Assembly (NCBI GenBank): GCA_029239235.1
Contig: JAQZBD010000115.1
Span: 1-41,330, forward strand
Origin: Herbinix sp.
GTDB lineage: Bacteria; Bacillota; Clostridia; Lachnospirales; Lachnospiraceae
Direction of reading: 5' to 3'
DNA: 41,330 nt
The notes below the pieces were generated by a model. It did not search any database. It saw nothing but the letters and a program-made list of their open reading frames with translations, and was not told the origin of the DNA. Positions 11,656 to 38,823 of the stretch are shown piece by piece; positions within the stretch are counted from its first letter, which is position 1, and the number at the start of each line of letters is the position of its first letter. The position numbers and the translations under genes were made by a program.

Positions 11656-11684
11656 TTGACATTTATTCTATTTTGCATTATACT
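11656..11684 (+). promoter_or_regulatory. Sigma-A promoter of the hydrogenase-sensor operon
   Basis: TTGACA (11656-11661), exactly 17 bp, TATACT (11679-11684): a near-perfect housekeeping promoter. The predicted start falls at about 11691, inside the Rex operator. Confidence 0.8.
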
Positions 11685-11689
11685 AATCT

Positions 11690-11707
11690 TTGTTAATACA
11701 TTAACAA
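11690..11707. promoter_or_regulatory. Rex operator
   Basis: TTGTTAATACATTAACAA is a perfect 18-bp palindrome matching the Rex consensus TTGTTAA-N4-TTAACAA. Rex is the NADH/NAD+-responsive repressor of Gram-positive bacteria; it leaves DNA when NADH is high. The site sits 5 bp downstream of the -10 and covers the predicted transcription start, a classical repressing position. Rex itself is not in the window. Confidence 0.85.
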
Positions 11708-11827
11708 TGTTGGGGGTTATTTCATTAATATAACTGAGTTTGTCTTCTTAAAGCAGACATTTGCTGCAAAAGTGTGTGCAATACAGCTTACAGGAGCACT
11801 CAGAAATGAAAAGGAGAATTTATTTTT

Positions 11828-12082
11828 ATGAATATTTACATCTGTGTCGGCAGTTCCTGCCATCTGAAAGGATCGTATGATATTATTCAGCTTATGAGAG
11901 AAGCCATTTCCAATAACAAACTTGAAGATAAGGTAAAGCTTTCCGCAGCCTTCTGTCTTGGGCGCTGTACTGATGGGGTATCTGTAAAAATAAATGATGA
12001 CATTGTTTGTGGCGTTTCAAGGGATAATTTTAATCAATTCTTCCGCGATAATGTATTAAGCCAAACAAAACTGACTTCCTAA
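11828..12082 (+). CDS. Thioredoxin-like [2Fe-2S] ferredoxin (NuoE/HydC-like)
   Basis: 84 residues, a stand-alone thioredoxin-like ferredoxin. The four cluster ligands have the NuoE spacing: C6-x4-C11 and C43-x3-C47; C61 is an extra cysteine. Such proteins pass single electrons between NAD(P)H- or ferredoxin-linked modules. First gene of a three-gene operon with a hydrogenase-like sensor and a phosphatase, 34 bp upstream of the sensor, so it probably supplies or removes electrons from it (inference). ATG preceded by AAGGAG at about 11 nt spacing. Confidence 0.85.
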   Translation: MNIYICVGSSCHLKGSYDIIQLMREAISNNKLEDKVKLSAAFCLGRCTDGVSVKINDDIVCGVSRDNFNQFFRDNVLSQTKLTS

Positions 12083-12116
12083 GTTCTTCCTATTTTCGAA
12101 AGGTTATGATATTAAA

Positions 12117-13799
12117 ATGAATTATTACATACAACTCAAAAAATCAAACTGCAAAAACTGTTATAAATGCATCCGAAATTGCCCTGTAAAATCTATTCGT
12201 TTTGCTGATCATCAGGCTCATATCGTAAAGGAGCAATGTATTCTCTGCGGTCAATGCTTTATTGCCTGTCCCCAGAACGCAAAGCAAATCCGTAATGATG
12301 TCGGGTTCGTTAAGGAGCTCATTGCAACCGGAAAGCCTGTGATTGCTAGTCTTGCTCCTTCCTTTGTTGCTAATTATGAGGGCTCTGATATTGGATCCAT
12401 GCGAGAGGCTTTACTAAGCCTTGGTTTTACCGATGTTGAAGAAACTGCCCTAGGTGCAACCATTGTGAAGCAAAAGTATGATGCCATGATTCGCGACCGA
12501 CAGTCCAGTGTAATCATCTCCTCCTGCTGCCACACGGTAAACACCTTAATTCAAAAGTATTATCCGGAAGCACTGCCCTACCTGGCAAATGTGCTATCCC
12601 CAATGCAAGCTCATTGTGCTAGCATTAAGGAAAGGTATCCACAGGCCTATACCGTCTTTCTAGGCCCATGCATATCAAAAAAGGATGAAGCAGATCAATA
12701 CCCGGGAATCGTCGACTGTGTTCTGACCTTCGAGGAGTTGTCCGATTGGATGAAAGCAGAAGGAGTTTCTCTTATCACTAGCCCTGAGAAGGATGAATTG
12801 CAGGAAGGTCGTGCGAGGCTCTTCCCTATTCCAGGCGGAATTATAAGATCTATGCTTCCGCAGCTGGAAGGTCATCACTACTTTGCCGTTGATGGGATAG
12901 AGAATTGTATGCGAGTTCTTACTAACATTGTTAGCGGCGATCTTTCTCATTGCTTTATCGAGATGTCCGCCTGCTCTGGCAGCTGTGTCGGTGGTCCTGC
13001 CATGGAAAAAGAACATCGTATGCCGATTACCGATTATCTACGTGTCAACAACTATGCGAAAGAGAAAGATTTTGAGCTACCGGCATCAACAAATACACAG
13101 CTGGAAAAGCACTTTAGCTACTTAGGTGCCCGCAGCCAGATGCCCGGCAGCAGTGCCATCACTGAAATACTTCACAAAATGGGCAAATCTTCGCCGGAAC
13201 AGGAGCTTAATTGCGGCAGTTGTGGATATAATACCTGCCGGGATAAAGCAATCGCTGTGTATCAAGGCAAAGCTGATCTTACCATGTGTCTTCCCTTCTT
13301 AAAGGAGAAGGCTGAGAACTTCTCTGACAACATTATCTTTAATATGCCGAATGGTGTAATTGTGCTCAATGAGGACTTAGAGGTTCAGCAGATCAATCGT
13401 GCCGCTAAGCAAATACTAGGGATTACACACAAGAATGATATCCTGGGACAGCCGGTCATCCGTATCTTAAATCCAGCCTCATACCTTCAAGTTATGACTG
13501 CCGGAAGAAATGTACATGATAAACTAACTTATCTTGAAGATTATCAAAAATACGTGGAAGAAACCATTATTTATGACCGAACCTACCATATCATCATCAG
13601 CATCATGAAGGATGTAACCCTTGAGGAAAAATCACGTCTGAAAAAAGAAAAGATCAACCAGCAAACTGTAGAAATTGCTGATAAGGTAATTGAAAAGCAG
13701 ATGCGTGTTGTCCAAGAAATTGCTTCCCTTTTAGGTGAAACAACTGCTGAAACAAAGATTGCGTTGACTAACTTGAAGGAGAGCTTGAAGAATGAATAA
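12117..13799 (+). CDS. Sensory-type [FeFe]-hydrogenase with PAS domain (HydS-like)
   Basis: 560 residues. Order: two [4Fe-4S] ferredoxin motifs (C12, C15, C18, C22; C41, C44, C47, C51), H-cluster domain (about 70-310), a further 4Fe-4S Fes-type domain (C366, C369, C374, C391), PAS domain (about 405-500) and a terminal helix likely to coil (500-550). H-cluster cysteines are kept but motifs are divergent: S-S-C-C-H (C137/C138) for T-S-C-C-P, G-P-C185-I-S-K-K for M-P-C-x-x-K, and E-M-S-A-C286-S-G-S-C290-V-G-G-P. This matches group C hydrogenases thought to sense H2 or redox state rather than turn over H2 fast. Stop overlaps the phosphatase start by 8 bp. Confidence 0.92.
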   Translation: MNYYIQLKKSNCKNCYKCIRNCPVKSIRFADHQAHIVKEQCILCGQCFIACPQNAKQIRNDVGFVKELIATGKPVIASLAPSFVANYEGSDIGSMREALLSLGFTDVEETALGATIVKQKYDAMIRDRQSSVIISSCCHTVNTLIQKYYPEALPYLANVLSPMQAHCASIKERYPQAYTVFLGPCISKKDEADQYPGIVDCVLTFEELSDWMKAEGVSLITSPEKDELQEGRARLFPIPGGIIRSMLPQLEGHHYFAVDGIENCMRVLTNIVSGDLSHCFIEMSACSGSCVGGPAMEKEHRMPITDYLRVNNYAKEKDFELPASTNTQLEKHFSYLGARSQMPGSSAITEILHKMGKSSPEQELNCGSCGYNTCRDKAIAVYQGKADLTMCLPFLKEKAENFSDNIIFNMPNGVIVLNEDLEVQQINRAAKQILGITHKNDILGQPVIRILNPASYLQVMTAGRNVHDKLTYLEDYQKYVEETIIYDRTYHIIISIMKDVTLEEKSRLKKEKINQQTVEIADKVIEKQMRVVQEIASLLGETTAETKIALTNLKESLKNE

Positions 13800-14964
13800 T
13801 CTTTGTACTGATATTGGATATTTGAGTATTAATAAATACGGAGAGCAACTCTGCGGTGATCATGTTGAAACCGTGGAAAGTGATGATAAGTCTCTGGTTC
13901 TCGTGCTGGCGGATGGACTGGGCAGTGGGGTAAAGGCAAATATCCTATCCACTCTTACCTCTAAAATCATCTCCACTATGATGGCCAACCATATGTCAAT
14001 CGAAGATTGTGTTACAACAGTTGCTTCCACCCTGCCCGTATGTGAAAAAAGGGGAATTGCCTACTCCACCTTTACCATCATCCATGTTGTCGATAATAAA
14101 ACTGCAGAGGTCATCCAGTATGATAACCCTCAAGTGATTCTTCTCAGAGACGGAATCAATTGCGAGTATGAAACGACCAGCATACAAATCGGTGATAAGA
14201 ATATCTTACAGTCTCGTATTGAGTTATCTCCAGGAGATGTCTTGGTTGCCATGAGCGATGGCGCCGTCTATGCGGGTGTTGGCAAAAAATTCAATTTTGG
14301 GTGGCAACGAAAAAATATTATTGAATTTTTAGAAGTGGCTTGTGAAAACACTTTTTCTTCAAAAATGATCTCTACTATTTTATTAGAGCAGTGTAATCAG
14401 CTGTACGGAGGTGCCCCCGGAGATGATACGACGATTGCCGCTGTTAAAATCAGAAAACGTGAGCTTGTAAACCTACTTATTGGTCCCCCCTCAAAGGCGG
14501 AGGATTTGGAATCAATGCTCAGTCAATTCTTCTCTAAAGATGGAAAGCATATTGTATGCGGTGGAACTACTTCTTCCCTCGCAGCAGACTTCCTTGGAAA
14601 AGAGATACACACTGGTTTGGATTATCAGGATCCGACAATTCCTCCTCTCTCAGAGATTGAAGGAATTGATCTGGTTACAGAAGGGGTTATCACAATCAGC
14701 CGTGTCCTATACTATGCTCAAAATTATCTTGAAGATAATACCTACTATCTTGAGTGGAGCTATCGTAAGGATGCAGCCTCACAAATTGCAAAGCTATTAT
14801 TTGAAGAAGCAACTGATATTGTATTCTATGTTGGCCGTGCTATGAATCCAGCACATCAAAATCCTAATCTTCCAATTAGCTTTAATATAAAAATGAAGCT
14901 GATTGATGAATTGTCCGATTGTCTGCGTAAGATGGGAAAGAATATAGAGGTGTATTATTTTTAA
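13792..14964 (+). CDS. SpoIIE/PP2C-type serine/threonine phosphatase paired with the hydrogenase sensor
   Basis: 390 residues. The first about 220 form a SpoIIE-type PP2C domain with metal-binding aspartates in L-A-D41-G-L-G-S-G, M-S-D156-G-A and P-G-D211-D-T-T; the remaining about 170 residues are a C-terminal extension I do not assign. No membrane helix. Its start overlaps the hydrogenase stop, so the two are translationally coupled. Known group C hydrogenase loci carry such phosphatases as outputs; here it would dephosphorylate a serine/threonine-phosphorylated target, perhaps an anti-sigma antagonist (inference). Target not visible in the window. Confidence 0.9.
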   Translation: MNNLCTDIGYLSINKYGEQLCGDHVETVESDDKSLVLVLADGLGSGVKANILSTLTSKIISTMMANHMSIEDCVTTVASTLPVCEKRGIAYSTFTIIHVVDNKTAEVIQYDNPQVILLRDGINCEYETTSIQIGDKNILQSRIELSPGDVLVAMSDGAVYAGVGKKFNFGWQRKNIIEFLEVACENTFSSKMISTILLEQCNQLYGGAPGDDTTIAAVKIRKRELVNLLIGPPSKAEDLESMLSQFFSKDGKHIVCGGTTSSLAADFLGKEIHTGLDYQDPTIPPLSEIEGIDLVTEGVITISRVLYYAQNYLEDNTYYLEWSYRKDAASQIAKLLFEEATDIVFYVGRAMNPAHQNPNLPISFNIKMKLIDELSDCLRKMGKNIEVYYF

Positions 14965-33685: not shown

Positions 33686-36600
33686 TTAATAGATTGCTCC
33701 AGTTGAATAATCTTCACTCATTTTACGATTAGAATAATAAACACAGATATCACCAGCAAAAAAATTGAACGTAGGCCCTTTGTAACTACTCTTAGAAAGC
33801 GGTGGGTTCTCCATTAACCACATACTACAATTATCATTATTCTTATAGTTTGCCGCATTAATATAGCTTAAATGCTGTTTCTTCTGTTCATCAGTTGTAT
33901 AAATATTGAAATTAACTATAAGATACCCCTGATCAAGCCAGAAGCTTTCATCATAATCGATCCCATGCTTATCAGCGTAATCCATCACATCATACCCTTG
34001 CGGAGCTGCATGTACATCATTCGGAATATAATACTGTCCATACCACCGCTGCATGGACTTATCCGATTTACTACTTGTTATCCCGCTTGCAACAATAGCT
34101 TCATAACTATCCATTTTTTTGATGGAAGCTGTGTACTTCTGTCCGACAAGAGTACGAAAAGCATAATTCAGCTGAACTTTTGAAAAGGTAAACATTCCTG
34201 ACCGTTGCCAGAAGAATTTGCCATACTTTACATTCCTGAGTGCTGCTGTATTCTTAATCTCAGCTGACGGTATCCCAAGGTTTGGTTCGCCAGTGTAAGT
34301 AGATTTCATATTAAGTGAATCTAAAGCTCCTCCTACCTTTACCAGCGTCCTTGATTTGCCGTTGATTTCTTCCGAATAATACAGGTCTACTGCTGTACGA
34401 TTCTTACCGTCCTTATCGACAAAATAGAACGAGGGCTTAATCACCACACTGGTTGCATCCGAATACATAGTTCCAATGGTATCCAGTGAATACCTGAACA
34501 TATATCCTGTCTTAAGGATTCCCTGGTTTTTATAATAGGGATGGCTGCCGTTTACCAGCGGAAATGTATATTTCACATTTCTTCCGGTATCTTTACCATA
34601 CTGGTCATTCGTTCCTACCGTATAGGTATAGTAATGCCCTTTATTATAAGCCAAACTTCCAGAACCGTCCGAATATTTTATACTATTCTTTTTCAGCCCC
34701 GAAGACTTTGGTATACGGAAGACATCCTTCCACAACGGATAATCCGTAATATCATACATGGTCAGTCCGTAAATTCTTCCGGACACCTCAAACTTAACCG
34801 TTTCGGTAGCCACATAATGGATTCTGTCCCTGTTCGCATAGGTTTCTGTATTGTCGATATAATCTTCACCATTGACAGCGACTGTGCGGAAATCTGCGGT
34901 ATAGACACCCTCCGTGATCCAGGTTGGCAGGTAGAATCTTGCGGTGGAACGTCCTAGCGTGATCCAGGTTCCTGCCTTGATATAATCATCATTCTTCTGG
35001 TTGCTGTCACTTCCCACATCCACAAATACATCAAAGGGAAATTTCACCTCATTTCGAAGCAGACCGTTTTTCTCTGCGATATAGGAAGCTATGGTATCAT
35101 GTAGGGATCTGGAAAAATCTCGCGTGTAATACCCCAGCATACCGGTATGGAAACCCGTATTTGAAATCCGTACCGTAAAATCGGACAAGATTGGATCAGG
35201 ATCAAGTACAAGGTTCACGCATCCGGCCGTGGGCTTAATTAGCTGTACATATTTATCATTGTCTGCATTGATGACAGGCTCGCATACCACTGGTGTATGT
35301 ATTACCACGTCATTGATGCCTGCTACGGGGTAGCTGGCTGTTTCACCTTTGGATGAACCTACCCTAGCTACTGCTGCATAAGTGATGGTGCCACTGGAGG
35401 AATAGATACCATTTCTCTTTATGTCCTTGATTACCTGATCATTTTTATACAGTGCATTTTGGTGAGTGTTAGTTGTGCACGGTGGAAGCGCTTCCGTGTT
35501 AATATTAGGTGCCTCTGTTTCTGATATGGTGCCGCTGATAACGGTTTGACCTCCAAACACCAGGGTATCACTTCTCACCTTGCATTTTCCCGTCTGTGAC
35601 AGGGCATAGTAAGTAAAATCCTCGGACGGCACTGATGGTCTGCTGGTACCACCAGAAATACTCTGGGAGGGTAGCGTTATACCATTCACTGCCTCATTGG
35701 GAGGAATGATGTGATAGCTCTCATTTGTCTCATGGGTATAGCTGATGATGGGTGGACTGTAGTATGTCCTGTTCGGAGAAATGGTGATGACTCCATCCGG
35801 AAGCGCATAGTTACGCAGAACTGAGCTGCCGATGTTATAATAGTCAAGATTAATAATCTCCCAGTAGCCATAGGCTCTGGGTACAGATATGTACTGGGTA
35901 ACGGTCACCGTATCTGTCAGCGTTTTGGGTCCTACTGCACTCGTCGGTGTCGCACTCTTCCAACTTAGATTGTAATTCTTTGAGACTCTCACGGAATAAT
36001 ACTTGATGCCCACCTTTTTCTCAAAAAAATATCCGACTAGATACTCCTTCGCCGTTACCTGTCCGTAAAGGCTTTCTGTGGTCGGTACTCCAGCTGTGAC
36101 TGTGAACTTTTCGCTTCCACGGTCATCTGCTCGGATCTCGCCTGCAGTCACTGCTTTCGTAAATTCGGAATAAGCAGATTCATATGCAGGTACCGTCACC
36201 TCCTCAATAGCTGGTGTCGGGGTAGGTGAGGCTGTCGGAGCCGGTGTTACCGTACCACTAGGTGGAGGTGTTGGCGTACCGCTTGAATTATTATCGTAAA
36301 TAAAATAGAAAGTGGCCAGAGATCCATCCTGTGCCGCCGGCATGGGGTAGTTATTGACCTTTGTAGTTGTTTTTGTATCAGTGGTCTGTACCATGCCACC
36401 TGTGTCTTTATATTTTAAATACCATTTATTCTGAAAATTGTAACCCATGGTTCCTTTCGTAAAAGAGTCAATGGGGTCATAGCTGACCTTCTGTCCTGAC
36501 TTTACACTGATACGCTCCGAGGTCAAGTGCCGTAGGTAATTTCCTTCTGCATCGATTGCCACTGAATTATATTGGTATGAAGTTTCTTTTTTATCAAATA

Positions 36601-37513
36601 TCATATTTATTGTAAGAGTTGAACCACCGGCAGCATCCGGGGCATGGAAGCTTACCGAATTTCCTGAGAATGGTCCCTTCTGCAATGTACTACCGGTTTC
36701 TCGGTCTTTATAGCTGTAATTCCATTTCGAAGTATATTCATAGGAAACCCCTCCTACGGATATTGTGTTCTGGGTCAGCGTAAAGGGTGGGATTACTTCG
36801 TCATAAATTGCGTTTTTTGTATACCCCAGAAGGTTAGAATTGAGTAGGTTACCGTCCTCATCTACTGCAATGACCTTAACTTTGAAGGTAGTGTTGTTAC
36901 TGATTACGTATTTAAAATTGTAATATCCTTTAAGATAGTTAATCGTAGCCGAACTCCAAGGGGCTTCTGCAAGCATTTCCTGGTAGCCATAGACATAGGT
37001 ATCAAGGGTATTGCCTCCTTGGAAGATTTCAAATACGTTATTTAAATACACTTCGGCACTGCCGTTCCTAACTATGTAGTCACCTGTAACACCGATATTG
37101 GCCGCCGCCTTCATGAAGTTTTTCTGTCGGATGATATATTCAGTAGTTTTAGTAGTCCCATTATCTGTTTCTTTACCGAACTCAAATGGTACATAGGCAA
37201 AATTAATACTAGCATTATTCCCAGTCGTAAATTTTTCCGACAAATTATACCTTTGAATTGCCATTTTATAATATAATGTTTTATAACGGGTGGATTTTTC
37301 ATCTGCACTATTATGGATTCCTTTTTGTACAATTGTAGCATCCATTACTTCAGTATTCTGAATCCCATTTGTACCGCCCTCTATTGTAAGCCACGGTGCT
37401 GCAGCACTTATTGTGTAAGAATTACATGTACTATTACAGATAATAAATATGATTATGAGAAAAGATATAGTCTTTCGAACTTTATAATACCGATAACGAT
37501 TAATCATCTGCAT
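33686..37513 (-). CDS. Large secreted surface protein (1275 aa), possibly DUF5704-type
   Basis: N-terminal signal peptide or anchor (about 14-37). Residues about 40-405 include two MucBP-like stretches (K-V-I-A-V-D-E-D-G-N, and V-A-I-D-A-E-G-N-Y-L-R), then a proline/threonine linker (about 407-434), then a long beta-rich region with few cysteines. No LPxTG sorting signal and no SLH at the end. The C-terminal two-thirds may be the DUF5704 region of clostridial surface proteins (from memory, unverified). Its ATG is 2 bp after the stop of the SLH-like gene and its SD lies in that gene's 3' end, so the two are translationally coupled. Function unknown. Confidence 0.75.
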   Translation of the reverse strand: MQMINRYRYYKVRKTISFLIIIFIICNSTCNSYTISAAAPWLTIEGGTNGIQNTEVMDATIVQKGIHNSADEKSTRYKTLYYKMAIQRYNLSEKFTTGNNASINFAYVPFEFGKETDNGTTKTTEYIIRQKNFMKAAANIGVTGDYIVRNGSAEVYLNNVFEIFQGGNTLDTYVYGYQEMLAEAPWSSATINYLKGYYNFKYVISNNTTFKVKVIAVDEDGNLLNSNLLGYTKNAIYDEVIPPFTLTQNTISVGGVSYEYTSKWNYSYKDRETGSTLQKGPFSGNSVSFHAPDAAGGSTLTINMIFDKKETSYQYNSVAIDAEGNYLRHLTSERISVKSGQKVSYDPIDSFTKGTMGYNFQNKWYLKYKDTGGMVQTTDTKTTTKVNNYPMPAAQDGSLATFYFIYDNNSSGTPTPPPSGTVTPAPTASPTPTPAIEEVTVPAYESAYSEFTKAVTAGEIRADDRGSEKFTVTAGVPTTESLYGQVTAKEYLVGYFFEKKVGIKYYSVRVSKNYNLSWKSATPTSAVGPKTLTDTVTVTQYISVPRAYGYWEIINLDYYNIGSSVLRNYALPDGVITISPNRTYYSPPIISYTHETNESYHIIPPNEAVNGITLPSQSISGGTSRPSVPSEDFTYYALSQTGKCKVRSDTLVFGGQTVISGTISETEAPNINTEALPPCTTNTHQNALYKNDQVIKDIKRNGIYSSSGTITYAAVARVGSSKGETASYPVAGINDVVIHTPVVCEPVINADNDKYVQLIKPTAGCVNLVLDPDPILSDFTVRISNTGFHTGMLGYYTRDFSRSLHDTIASYIAEKNGLLRNEVKFPFDVFVDVGSDSNQKNDDYIKAGTWITLGRSTARFYLPTWITEGVYTADFRTVAVNGEDYIDNTETYANRDRIHYVATETVKFEVSGRIYGLTMYDITDYPLWKDVFRIPKSSGLKKNSIKYSDGSGSLAYNKGHYYTYTVGTNDQYGKDTGRNVKYTFPLVNGSHPYYKNQGILKTGYMFRYSLDTIGTMYSDATSVVIKPSFYFVDKDGKNRTAVDLYYSEEINGKSRTLVKVGGALDSLNMKSTYTGEPNLGIPSAEIKNTAALRNVKYGKFFWQRSGMFTFSKVQLNYAFRTLVGQKYTASIKKMDSYEAIVASGITSSKSDKSMQRWYGQYYIPNDVHAAPQGYDVMDYADKHGIDYDESFWLDQGYLIVNFNIYTTDEQKKQHLSYINAANYKNNDNCSMWLMENPPLSKSSYKGPTFNFFAGDICVYYSNRKMSEDYSTGAIY

Positions 37514-37515
37514 TA

Positions 37516-38823
37516 CTAATTAATTCTCCTTTTATCATATATTAGTTCGTCCCAGATTGCATAAATAACGCCTATATTATCCGGATTTTTAATAGAATAC
37601 CATCCAAGTTCAACATCAAAATAACTTTCTTTCCACTTACCTATTGAATATGATTTTAGGCAAACGATCGGCTCCCTAGTATATAGAATCTTTCCATAAG
37701 GATTTTCCATGATCAAGGTATCTGCATCTGCTCCATATTTTACTGTTGATGATAATATACGGTACTTAACATATACTCTTAATACATACCTTCCTCTGAA
37801 GTAGTATAGTGATGAACCCTCCACTGCTATCTTAGAACTTTCCACGACAGTCTTATTTGCTTTCATCTCTTTTATATACTCTACCACATCCTTTTTTTCC
37901 TTAGCTTTAATATTATCATGACCATTACTATAGTCCACTAACAAAAGTTTGTTCACCCACTGCTCATCAATGGTACGGTAATCAACGTTAAATACGCATT
38001 CAGTATAGGTCTTAACTTTTTGAACCCATATGTCAAGATATTTTTCCTTCACAGATTCAAAATCATCAAAATCTGTTATCTTATCTATATCCTTTGGAGA
38101 AGCATATTCTTCTATGTATACATAGGGCATTCTTTCATCTGTCCTAGGATTAACTTTCGCCTGACCCTCATACTCAAACTTCCAGTCATAATATTTATTT
38201 GGATAGCTAGCAAGGATGTAAGGATAATGTTTAGCATACTTTGGCAAATTTGTTGTTCGGATCAACTGTCCGTCCGGACTGATTTTTGACCTTTTACTAG
38301 GATCCAACACGAGTGAAATGACTGACTTAGCAGCATCCGTTGATACATACCACATACCATTGAATTTCCTGTTCTCAGAATATGTACCATTGCTAAAGCC
38401 GATGATAATTCCTTTTGCCATAACCTTGGCTACATCTTCGCGTTTACCTGGGGCCACGCTTTTGATGTCAGATATCCTCTTCTCCAAGACCGTGCTGAGA
38501 AGTTTCTCACTCACTGTATTTCCATTGAGATACTCATCTGCTCTGTTTGCCAGTACCGCAAGGTCAGCCCTGGTCAGGTATCCAGTGTATTTATTAAAAT
38601 CTCCGTCCTTCAGTATACCTGCGGTTAGAGCAGCTTCAATGTATGGTTCGTTTTTACCTGCATCTACCGGGAGCTCAAGTCCTGTGACCAGCAGTTTCAC
38701 AAAGGAATTTACTTTGATATAATCTGCAGCCTTCGTTTTTTGAGCAGGCATTGCAGTTGTAACAACCAATAATGCCACCATTAAAATACTCATAAGTCGC
38801 TTAATCTTTAAACCTTCTTTCAT
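37516..38823 (-). CDS. Secreted SLH-like domain protein
   Basis: 435 residues. Signal peptide about 1-32 (K-x-K-R-L-M-S-I-L-M-V-A-L-L, cleavage near T-K-A-A). Residues about 36-100 look like an S-layer-homology repeat: F-V-K-L-L-V ... Y-I-E-A-A-L-T-A-G-I-L-K-D ... L-T-R-A-D-L-A-V-L; a second weak repeat follows (V-A-K-V-M-A-K-G-I-I-I-G-F-S-N-G-T-Y). SLH domains bind secondary cell-wall polymer. The rest is unassigned. ATG follows AAAGGGGAAAGGG. Coupled to the 1275-residue protein, suggesting one anchors or presents the other (inference). Confidence 0.78.
   Translation of the reverse strand: MKEGLKIKRLMSILMVALLVVTTAMPAQKTKAADYIKVNSFVKLLVTGLELPVDAGKNEPYIEAALTAGILKDGDFNKYTGYLTRADLAVLANRADEYLNGNTVSEKLLSTVLEKRISDIKSVAPGKREDVAKVMAKGIIIGFSNGTYSENRKFNGMWYVSTDAAKSVISLVLDPSKRSKISPDGQLIRTTNLPKYAKHYPYILASYPNKYYDWKFEYEGQAKVNPRTDERMPYVYIEEYASPKDIDKITDFDDFESVKEKYLDIWVQKVKTYTECVFNVDYRTIDEQWVNKLLLVDYSNGHDNIKAKEKKDVVEYIKEMKANKTVVESSKIAVEGSSLYYFRGRYVLRVYVKYRILSSTVKYGADADTLIMENPYGKILYTREPIVCLKSYSIGKWKESYFDVELGWYSIKNPDNIGVIYAIWDELIYDKRRIN

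Follow-up and report, generated by a model that had tools for sequence, protein, structure and literature searches.

The window analysed here, 41,330 nucleotides of Herbinix sp. DNA, contains a three-gene operon encoding an 84-aa thioredoxin-like [2Fe-2S] protein, the 560-aa PAS-containing sensory-type [FeFe]-hydrogenase HydS and a 390-aa SpoIIE-type phosphatase. Based on sequence features, we infer that the operon is under Rex control and forms a sensor-phosphatase module built on a sensory [FeFe]-hydrogenase of the phosphatase-linked type; this module would sense H2 and pass the signal from HydS to the phosphatase (probability of roughly 0.68). Its architecture, motifs and tree position match the phosphatase-linked class proposed as HydDB group C3. 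The idea of a phosphatase-linked sensory hydrogenase is already published, in the accounts given in PMC5037454, PMC6776011, PMC5707799 and PMC11837493. HydDB [FeFe] group C3, labelled 'phosphatase-linked (putative)', likewise pairs a PAS-type group C hydrogenase with a Ser/Thr phosphatase, and its description in the relevant part of PMC5037454 is silent on an operator, on a tail motif, on a C-terminal domain of the phosphatase and on a substrate.

HydS is encoded at positions 12,117 to 13,799 of the forward strand, on which all features described below lie, and was recognised from its domains, motifs and tree position, with Pfam matches to Fe_hyd_lg_C (E 1.6e-49), FeS (E 1.5e-10) and Fer4_10 (E 1.3e-07). 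Two N-terminal [4Fe-4S] sites (Cys 12, 15, 18, 22 and 41, 44, 47, 51; 12,150 to 12,269; Fer4_10) are followed by an H-domain (12,333 to 12,998), whose ligands C138, C185, C286 and C290 were located by alignment, and by a C-terminal Fe-S domain with the pattern C366-x2-C369-x4-C374-x16-C391 (13,203 to 13,295; PF04060). A PAS domain occupies about residues 404-510 (13,326 to 13,646), as indicated by PF00989 (25.8 bits, above the cut-off of 22.6), PF13426 and predicted strands and helices. In CpI numbering, C137 corresponds to C299 and is kept, G183 corresponds to M353 and S284 to M497. The H-cluster ligands (C300 and others) are strictly kept in 81/81 HydS rows, the window included, and the same rows all carry the second-sphere exchanges M353->G and M497->S. 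The hydrogenase with divergent H-cluster motifs and a PAS domain that a preliminary description of this DNA had proposed is thus confirmed.

In a tree of 70 hydrogenase rows, built by a quick method with deep forks at 85-93 and long branches flagged, and with group letters taken from motif and architecture and no named HydDB reference among the rows, the window's HydS groups with the other PAS-bearing HydS rows. It stands apart from the A-type (L001), B-type (L003, L004) and D-type (L006) enzymes of the same assembly; the placement within group A that would have told against the original reading did not occur. Group C (M2f) is defined in PMC8163306, in the portion considered here, by a pair of [4Fe-4S] sites at the N terminus and a Cx2Cx4Cx16C motif at the C terminus. 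HydS has both, together with a PAS domain that follows the C-terminal cluster and that group D (M2e) lacks, replacements of M353 and M497, and a tree position outside group A, all of which support the sensory class suggested for it earlier. The HydS of Thermotoga maritima (TmHydS) likewise has a PAS domain and the M353->G and M497->S exchanges, according to the relevant sections of PMC10055695 and PMC8163306; it differs in having Ala at the C299 position, where the window's HydS has Cys.

The group C description also expects C299 not to be conserved, and this position is Cys in all 81 HydS rows, the window's among them. Loss of this proton-relay Cys is often quoted as a mark of sensors. Nevertheless, since a Cys occupies the position in 17% of sensory sequences, as stated in the part of PMC10055695 consulted, we did not treat the criterion as defining. 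The retained C299 would also suit a HydS that is a working low-rate hydrogenase whose phosphatase neighbour acts separately, and a passage of PMC13277313 raises the possibility that HfsABC is a functional hydrogenase without HfsD. This alternative is very unlikely in our judgement, as the PAS domain, the output tail behind it and a conserved gene overlap all speak against it.

The output tail comprises residues 511-560 (13,647 to 13,796) and was delimited by conservation and structure prediction, with predicted helices around QEIASLLGETTAETK (pLDDT 60-77). Its core, QEIA[SG]LLGETTAETK, is near-invariant and is retained even in divergent HydS proteins with variable active-site residues. Among near relatives, the fraction of conserved positions is 0.60 in the tail versus 0.36 in the PAS domain, and the tail is also better conserved than the H-domain, a further point against a purely catalytic role. 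The tail is probably the contact with the phosphatase. The 80 related loci compared here are the best 80 of at least 561 relatives and have 58-87% identity to the window, so the conservation figures describe near kin.

Within this set, the phosphatase adjoins HydS in 76 of the 77 loci with room downstream, as is expected of the C3 class with its linked Ser/Thr phosphatase, and 65 of these 76 pairs share an identical 8-nt overlap. The [2Fe-2S] gene accompanies the module in 75/78 of these best 80 loci, so the co-occurrence of the three genes on which the preliminary description had made its reading depend was indeed found. A broader sample covered 398 genomes of the phylum, with neighbourhoods read at the 30 best loci and at 20 hand-picked places, 8 of them shared. 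HydS lies beside the phosphatase in 15 of the 20 hand-picked places; of the other five, L159-L161 have the C-terminal domain of the phosphatase by itself, L167 has HydS with no phosphatase recognised, and L170 has a fragment only. Elsewhere, L123 has the phosphatase and no HydS, and L059 has HydS with its tail and no adjoining phosphatase. Gene clusters were called with our own ORF finder and BLAST, and contig ends cut some genes, so the upstream linkages to AdhE (at least 30), Rex (at least 21) and an APH-type kinase (at least 35) among the 51 relatives with 5 kb upstream are lower bounds.

The first gene of the operon (11,828 to 12,082) encodes the thioredoxin-like [2Fe-2S] protein (PF01257, E 7.9e-08), and its four Cys (6, 11, 43 and 47) are invariant in 114/114 aligned relatives. 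Its linkage to HydS, about as tight as that of the phosphatase, and its frequent occurrence as a tandem pair (41/78 of the best 80 loci of at least 561 relatives) could point to a sensor of redox state and not of H2. The H-cluster would then serve as a poised sink for electrons, and what is signalled would be the redox state of ferredoxin or of the [2Fe-2S] protein, delivered through the small protein, with H2 as one route only. The retention of every [4Fe-4S] site Cys in HydS is consistent with this account. However, the strict conservation of all H-cluster ligands would be needless for a pure redox relay, and in the Ruminococcus albus co-culture described in the relevant part of PMC6776011 the product pattern tracked the H2 level. 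We thus regard a redox sensor as unlikely and favour H2 sensing.

The phosphatase gene (13,792 to 14,964) overlaps that of HydS by 8 nt and encodes a predicted SpoIIE/PPM-type Ser/Thr phosphatase (SpoIIE, E 1.4e-15). Its catalytic PPM domain, delimited by alignment and fold, spans residues 1-221 (13,792 to 14,454), and the expected metal-binding Asp 23, 41, 156, 211 and 212 align with those of SpoIIE and are invariant in 72/72 relatives; the overlapping SpoIIE-type phosphatase proposed earlier is accordingly upheld. The best solved fold matches are SpoIIE and other PP2C proteins; the RsbU-RsbW protein 3ke6 ranks eighth, and all 50 matches listed of the 1018 found by Foldseek are of PP2C type by title. 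The PPM catalytic domain is thus common to this protein and SpoIIE, RsbU and RsbX; unlike in those phosphatases, the sensor is encoded by a separate, overlapping gene and an extra C-terminal domain is present.

This C-terminal domain, delimited by conservation, comprises 169 uncharacterised residues (222-390; 14,455 to 14,961), had no credible match in Pfam or NCBIfam and is conserved as strongly as the catalytic part. It is present in 122 of the 398 evenly drawn phylum genomes, and 29 of its best 30 loci there, the window's included, lie beside a HydS with PAS domain and tail. In three genomes (L159-L161), the domain alone lies beside bifurcating-type hydrogenase genes. Its probable role is recognition of the target or of a further partner. 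A NagB/DeoRC or SIS fold, suggested by a CGGTT stretch, was dropped after hhalign gave probabilities of 0.4% (DeoRC) and 0.2% (SIS), which did not exceed those of seven unrelated controls; phosphoheptose isomerase, a weak match in the PDB (E 0.018), was insufficient to assign either fold. DUF436/TIGR01440 was likewise rejected as weak (E 0.062 and 0.13, in 2/20 members each), and DUF436 itself was found in 0/13 relatives searched.

Upstream of the operon, we localized a sigma-70-type promoter, TTGACA(17)TATACT (11,656 to 11,684), with 11/12 consensus bases, and an AAAGGAG stretch resembling a ribosome-binding site was read off the sequence at 11,810 to 11,816. Just 3′ of the -10 box lies a palindromic Rex-type operator, TTGTTAATACATTAACAA (11,690 to 11,707), with 0 mismatches to the Rex consensus TTGTTAANNNNTTAACAA quoted in PMC8457756; it thus sits where transcription probably begins. 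Only two perfect sites occur in the 4.97-Mb assembly, the operon's own and one on contig C340 near an AI-2E-type transporter gene. Seven of 23 upstream regions of relatives repeated others, and the 16 distinct ones, each counted once, had 0 mismatches in three cases, 1 in two, 2 in three and 3 in four, a score that 4-15% of approximate dinucleotide shuffles also attained; the other four lacked a Rex-like site (at least 5 mismatches). A TTGACA/TTGACT...TATACT-like stretch 5′ of the Rex site was also present in L010, L011 and L015. Genome-wide, the pattern at up to 2 mismatches was not enriched: it matched 80 times per strand, the reversed control 94 times. When up to 3 mismatches were allowed, the window held 2 matches, fewer than its shuffles (mean 5.87). 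The case for the operator therefore lies in its perfection, position and conservation. The Rex operator proposed earlier is thus supported by a perfect site at the promoter and by Rex-type sites upstream of the module in relatives, and the presence of TTGTTAANNNNTTAACAA at the promoter makes the module a putative member of the Rex regulon. The assembly encodes four Rex-type genes, and each of its two full-length adhE genes has two 1-mismatch Rex-type sites upstream.

The window's module no longer has HydA beside it, nor Rex, AdhE or the APH-type kinase, so it could be a relic whose signal goes nowhere. An APH-type kinase query from L034 also matched nothing in the assembly, with no positive control for the query. 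A relic is nevertheless extremely improbable: all three ORFs are intact, the operator is perfect, and HydA, absent beside the module in several members of the genus, changed its linkage at least four times on the HydS tree with the HydS-phosphatase pair retained throughout. L003 (contig C187) was rejected as the ortholog of the missing operon HydA, as its partner in the tree is the HydA from a different HydS operon, in G424, and it falls outside the clade holding the HydA of L011-L014. The assembly encodes the maturase HydF (576.9 bits), and its group D-type HydS lies beside a HATPase_c_2 kinase-fold protein, in our own reading RsbW-like.

We propose that a rise in NADH would release Rex from the operator and so allow expression of the module. 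The H-cluster of HydS, presumably slow, would then come into equilibrium with H2, and also with the electron pool by way of the [4Fe-4S] clusters and possibly the small [2Fe-2S] protein. The resulting change would be passed to the PAS domain chiefly through an altered conformation and leave HydS by the near-invariant tail, which may dock on the phosphatase and alter its activity. RsbP-type phosphatases have their activity changed through PAS and coiled-coil segments, and the tail may act by analogy with these. The substrate of the phosphatase would be a protein phosphorylated on Ser/Thr, most likely one that controls fermentative alcohol and hydrogen genes. The earlier signalling model thus stands as to sensory class, co-occurrence, phosphatase and Rex-type operator; its Fe-S chain relay is weakened because, in the part of PMC13104023 concerned, the C-terminal [4Fe-4S] cluster of the group D enzyme TamHydS, which has no PAS domain, remained unreduced under H2 at 1 atm. 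As a quite unlikely extension, HydS and the phosphatase could form a split switch joined at the tail, with the C-terminal domain as a novel domain that binds a partner or ligand in hydrogen metabolism, also acting alone beside bifurcating-type hydrogenases, and, given the group D-type HydS/HATPase_c_2 pair, the two sensory hydrogenases could drive an opposed kinase and phosphatase on a shared regulator.

The HydS cluster of R. albus, as presented in PMC6776011, likewise combines a group C hydrogenase, a PAS domain and a putative Ser/Thr phosphatase. HfsB and HfsC of Thermoanaerobacterium hfsABCD are named in the same class in sections of PMC5707799 and PMC11837493 and are likened here by description; that cluster contains hfsD, whereas the window's operon has no adjoining hfsD-like hydrogenase. 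Deletion of hfsABCD with overexpression of hfsD in T. thermosaccharolyticum gave an ethanol profile similar to that of an hfsB deletion, as reported in the portion of PMC11837493 considered; HfsC is thus dispensable for that phenotype, which tells against the model.

H2 sensing and the choice between ethanol, acetate and H2 in fermenting Clostridia bear on rumen methane and biofuels, and the pair of HydS and phosphatase ranks among the leading candidates for this sensing. We found neither a signal path nor a substrate in the papers considered here; the tail motif and the extra domain of the phosphatase offer two concrete contact points, and an operon that lacks a linked catalytic hydrogenase would provide a simple background for testing both.

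The operon lies on the + strand and comprises an 84-aa [2Fe-2S] protein (11828-12082), the 560-aa PAS-containing [FeFe]-hydrogenase HydS (12117-13799) and a phosphatase (13792-14964), with an overlap of 8 nt between the last two genes. The three ORFs, promoter and operator of the preliminary description were all found in place. The perfect palindrome TTGTTAATACATTAACAA, a putative Rex operator, starts at 11690 on the + strand, just beyond the promoter TTGACA-17-TATACT (same strand), whose last base is 11684; thus, a repressor bound there would sit over the likely transcription start. The clostridial Rex consensus is quoted as TTGTTAANNNNTTAACAA in the available text of PMC8457756. When the best Rex-type site was taken from each of 16 distinct upstream regions, it had no mismatches in three (the window, L010 and L015), one in two, two in three, and three in four, the last score being matched by 4-15% of approximate shuffles. 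The best match had at least five mismatches in the four remaining regions (L016, L017, L149 and L153), each of which has a hydrogenase or rex gene immediately 5′. Since the assembly carries four Rex-type genes, the predicted operator could be bound by any of their products. Its two full-length adhE genes each have two Rex-type sites with one mismatch, one of them shortly 5′ of the start codon.

HydS contains two N-terminal [4Fe-4S] sites, an H-domain, a C-terminal Cx2Cx4Cx16C domain and a PAS domain, which is the plan given for M2f/group C in the available text of PMC8163306. The best NCBIfam model, the B1 subfamily, scored 193.6 bits against a cut-off of 450; therefore, none of the NCBIfam subfamilies fits HydS. 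Alignment with the CpI hydrogenase, whose numbering was taken from papers, showed that the four H-cluster ligands are kept and that M353 and M497 are replaced by Gly and Ser in 81/81 HydS rows, window included, as in Thermotoga maritima HydS (TmHydS). The C299 position is Cys in all 81 rows, whereas it is Ala in TmHydS; Cys is reported there in 17% of sensory sequences (PMC10055695, available text). The residue following ligand C300 is His in 79/81 HydS rows versus Pro in all 61 rows of other hydrogenases at these loci. Second-sphere residues are variable in more distant phosphatase-linked HydS.

In a 70-row hydrogenase tree, built by a quick method with long branches flagged, HydS of L010 (88% identity) is the partner of the window HydS, and both fall among PAS-bearing HydS rows. 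The hydrogenases of the same assembly that we take to be A-type (L001), B-type (L003, L004) and D-type (L006), letters assigned from motifs and architecture following the usual definitions and the papers, are placed elsewhere. The deepest splits have support of 85-93, so architecture and motifs carry as much weight as the tree in excluding HydS from group A. This kind of phosphatase-linked sensory hydrogenase is already known as HydDB C3. At L006 (G000, contig C42, 392-3693), a group D-type HydS lacking PAS has two DRTGG genes, a HATPase_c_2 gene and a PHP gene as neighbours; we read the HATPase_c_2 protein as RsbW-like, and this kinase-fold protein may be to the D sensor what the phosphatase is to the C sensor.

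Among the best 80 of 561 relatives (58-87% identity to the window), the expected co-occurrence of the three genes was borne out. The phosphatase directly follows HydS in 76 of the 77 loci that extend 300 bp or more downstream, L059 being the exception, with an overlap of 8 nt in 65, 14 nt in 7, 41 nt in 1 and none in 3. The [2Fe-2S] gene lies upstream of HydS in 75/78 (exceptions L021, L023 and L040), as a tandem pair in 41/78. Its product is a short thioredoxin-like protein whose PF01257 match is confined to the C-terminal half (profile 67-140 of 145), with Cys 6, 11, 43 and 47 invariant in 114/114 aligned relatives. A second hydrogenase, HydA, is present downstream in 54/64 loci with room, and the 51 loci with at least 5 kb upstream include an APH-type kinase in 35, AdhE in 30 and Rex in 21. 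From these counts, the usual complete arrangement is LysR - Rex - AdhE - APH-type kinase - [2Fe-2S] - HydS - phosphatase - HydA. A query search, run without a positive control, did not find the APH-type kinase in this assembly.

The phosphatase (390 aa) has a PPM domain of the SpoIIE/RsbU type at residues 1-221, with Asp 23, 41, 156, 211 and 212 invariant in 72/72 sequences. Residues 222-390 gave no credible family match in Pfam or NCBIfam, and profile tests for a DeoRC or SIS fold were negative. The share of conserved positions is 0.48 in this region versus 0.44 in the catalytic part, the best-kept stretches being GPP, CGGT, PP, DLVTEG and GxAxNxAHQNPxLP. Its predicted structure is mostly confident (block means 85-96) and weak at residues 351-370 (52, 69), the location of GxAxNxAHQNPxLP. 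A profile of this C-terminal domain matched in 122 genomes of an even sample of 398 across the phylum, and a HydS gene with PAS and tail adjoins the phosphatase in 29 of the best 30 loci, the window's own included. The sole exception, L123 (G005), neighbours DUF3810 and GGDEF-HD protein genes. The domain also stands alone in 156-159-aa genes of three genomes sharing one genus code (L159, 4045-4515; L160, 4023-4502; L161, 3999-4475); in L159, NuoF-like and [FeFe]-hydrogenase genes come before it and NuoE- and NuoF-like genes after it. In L163, the catalytic domain and the C-terminal domain are each encoded by their own ORF.

In near relatives, the share of conserved positions is 0.60 in the last 50 residues of HydS (511-560), compared with 0.36 in PAS, 0.43 in the H-domain, 0.51 in the N-terminal Fe-S region and 0.69 in the C-terminal Fe-S region. 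The predicted structure (mean pLDDT 79.6; 60-77 in the tail stretch) shows a helix at 501-539, a turn and a helix at 544-559. A Pfam search of the tail gave nothing credible. The motif QEIA[SG]LLGETTAETK persists, with single changes, in divergent HydS of other families in the phylum. From this sequence evidence, we infer that the tail is probably the phosphatase contact. The tail-phosphatase link is not strict, since L059 keeps the motif without an adjoining phosphatase and L171 has two tailed HydS and a single phosphatase. The available portions of the open-licence literature searched held no mention of the tail motif or the phosphatase C-terminal domain, which we do not claim as unpublished.

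The module is reduced in the window lineage. Full-length HydS is present in 14/34 genus genomes and partial in one more. HydA follows the phosphatase in six genus members (L180, L181, L183, L185, L186 and L187), with a signal-peptidase-like gene after it in five, whereas the L181 contig stops at this point. HydA is missing from this position in the window, L182, L184 and L188, where the signal peptidase adjoins the phosphatase or lies one gene beyond, an epimerase-like gene intervening in the window and L182. Family searches verified Peptidase_S26 in the window, L184, L185 and L188 and the epimerase family in L182; the other genes were assigned by eye. HydA is also absent after the phosphatase in L189 and L190, the former having a hydrogenase gene upstream instead. 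HydA linkage changed at least four times on the HydS tree (16 scored rows, of which 6 lack and 10 have linked HydA, 4 of the latter added as outgroup); the change count alone cannot separate gain from loss, and loss is the simpler explanation, HydA being the rule outside the genus.

Within the assembly, the adhE blocks L195 (C16) and L196 (C307) lie on syntenic contigs with 76% DNA identity over 4.4 kb, and L006 and L008 are 74-79% identical. These pairs suggest that the assembly combines sequence from two related organisms or else contains large duplications; thus, gene counts may be inflated. Elsewhere in the window are a cobalamin riboswitch (RF00174, 26811-27047, - strand, 91.2 bits) that precedes a series of minus-strand ORFs, a 1275-aa ORF with DUF5704 (33686-37513, - strand) and, next to it, a 435-aa ORF with a weak S-layer homology match (37516-38823).

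The literature, in the text available, supports a regulatory role and does not support the wiring. The eight-gene R. albus cluster that includes HydS was expressed 111-fold lower when the bacterium was grown together with an H2-consuming partner (PMC6776011). In T. saccharolyticum, ethanol and adhE transcripts were raised by deletion of hfsA or hfsB, with no such rise on deleting hfsC or hfsD (PMC5707799). In a T. thermosaccharolyticum hfsABCD deletion, hfsD overexpression was sufficient for the ethanol phenotype (PMC11837493), which argues against a need for HfsC in that phenotype. The preliminary description had the signal relayed through the Fe-S chain to the PAS domain and phosphatase. In the available text on TamHydS, a group D sensory relative, H2 leaves the C-terminal cluster unreduced but is reported to alter secondary structure (PMC13104023); electron relay is therefore disfavoured and a conformational route to the PAS domain and phosphatase preferred. 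The conformational signal would pass from the H-domain through PAS and the tail to the phosphatase, whose likeliest class of substrate would be a regulator of adhE and hydrogenase genes.
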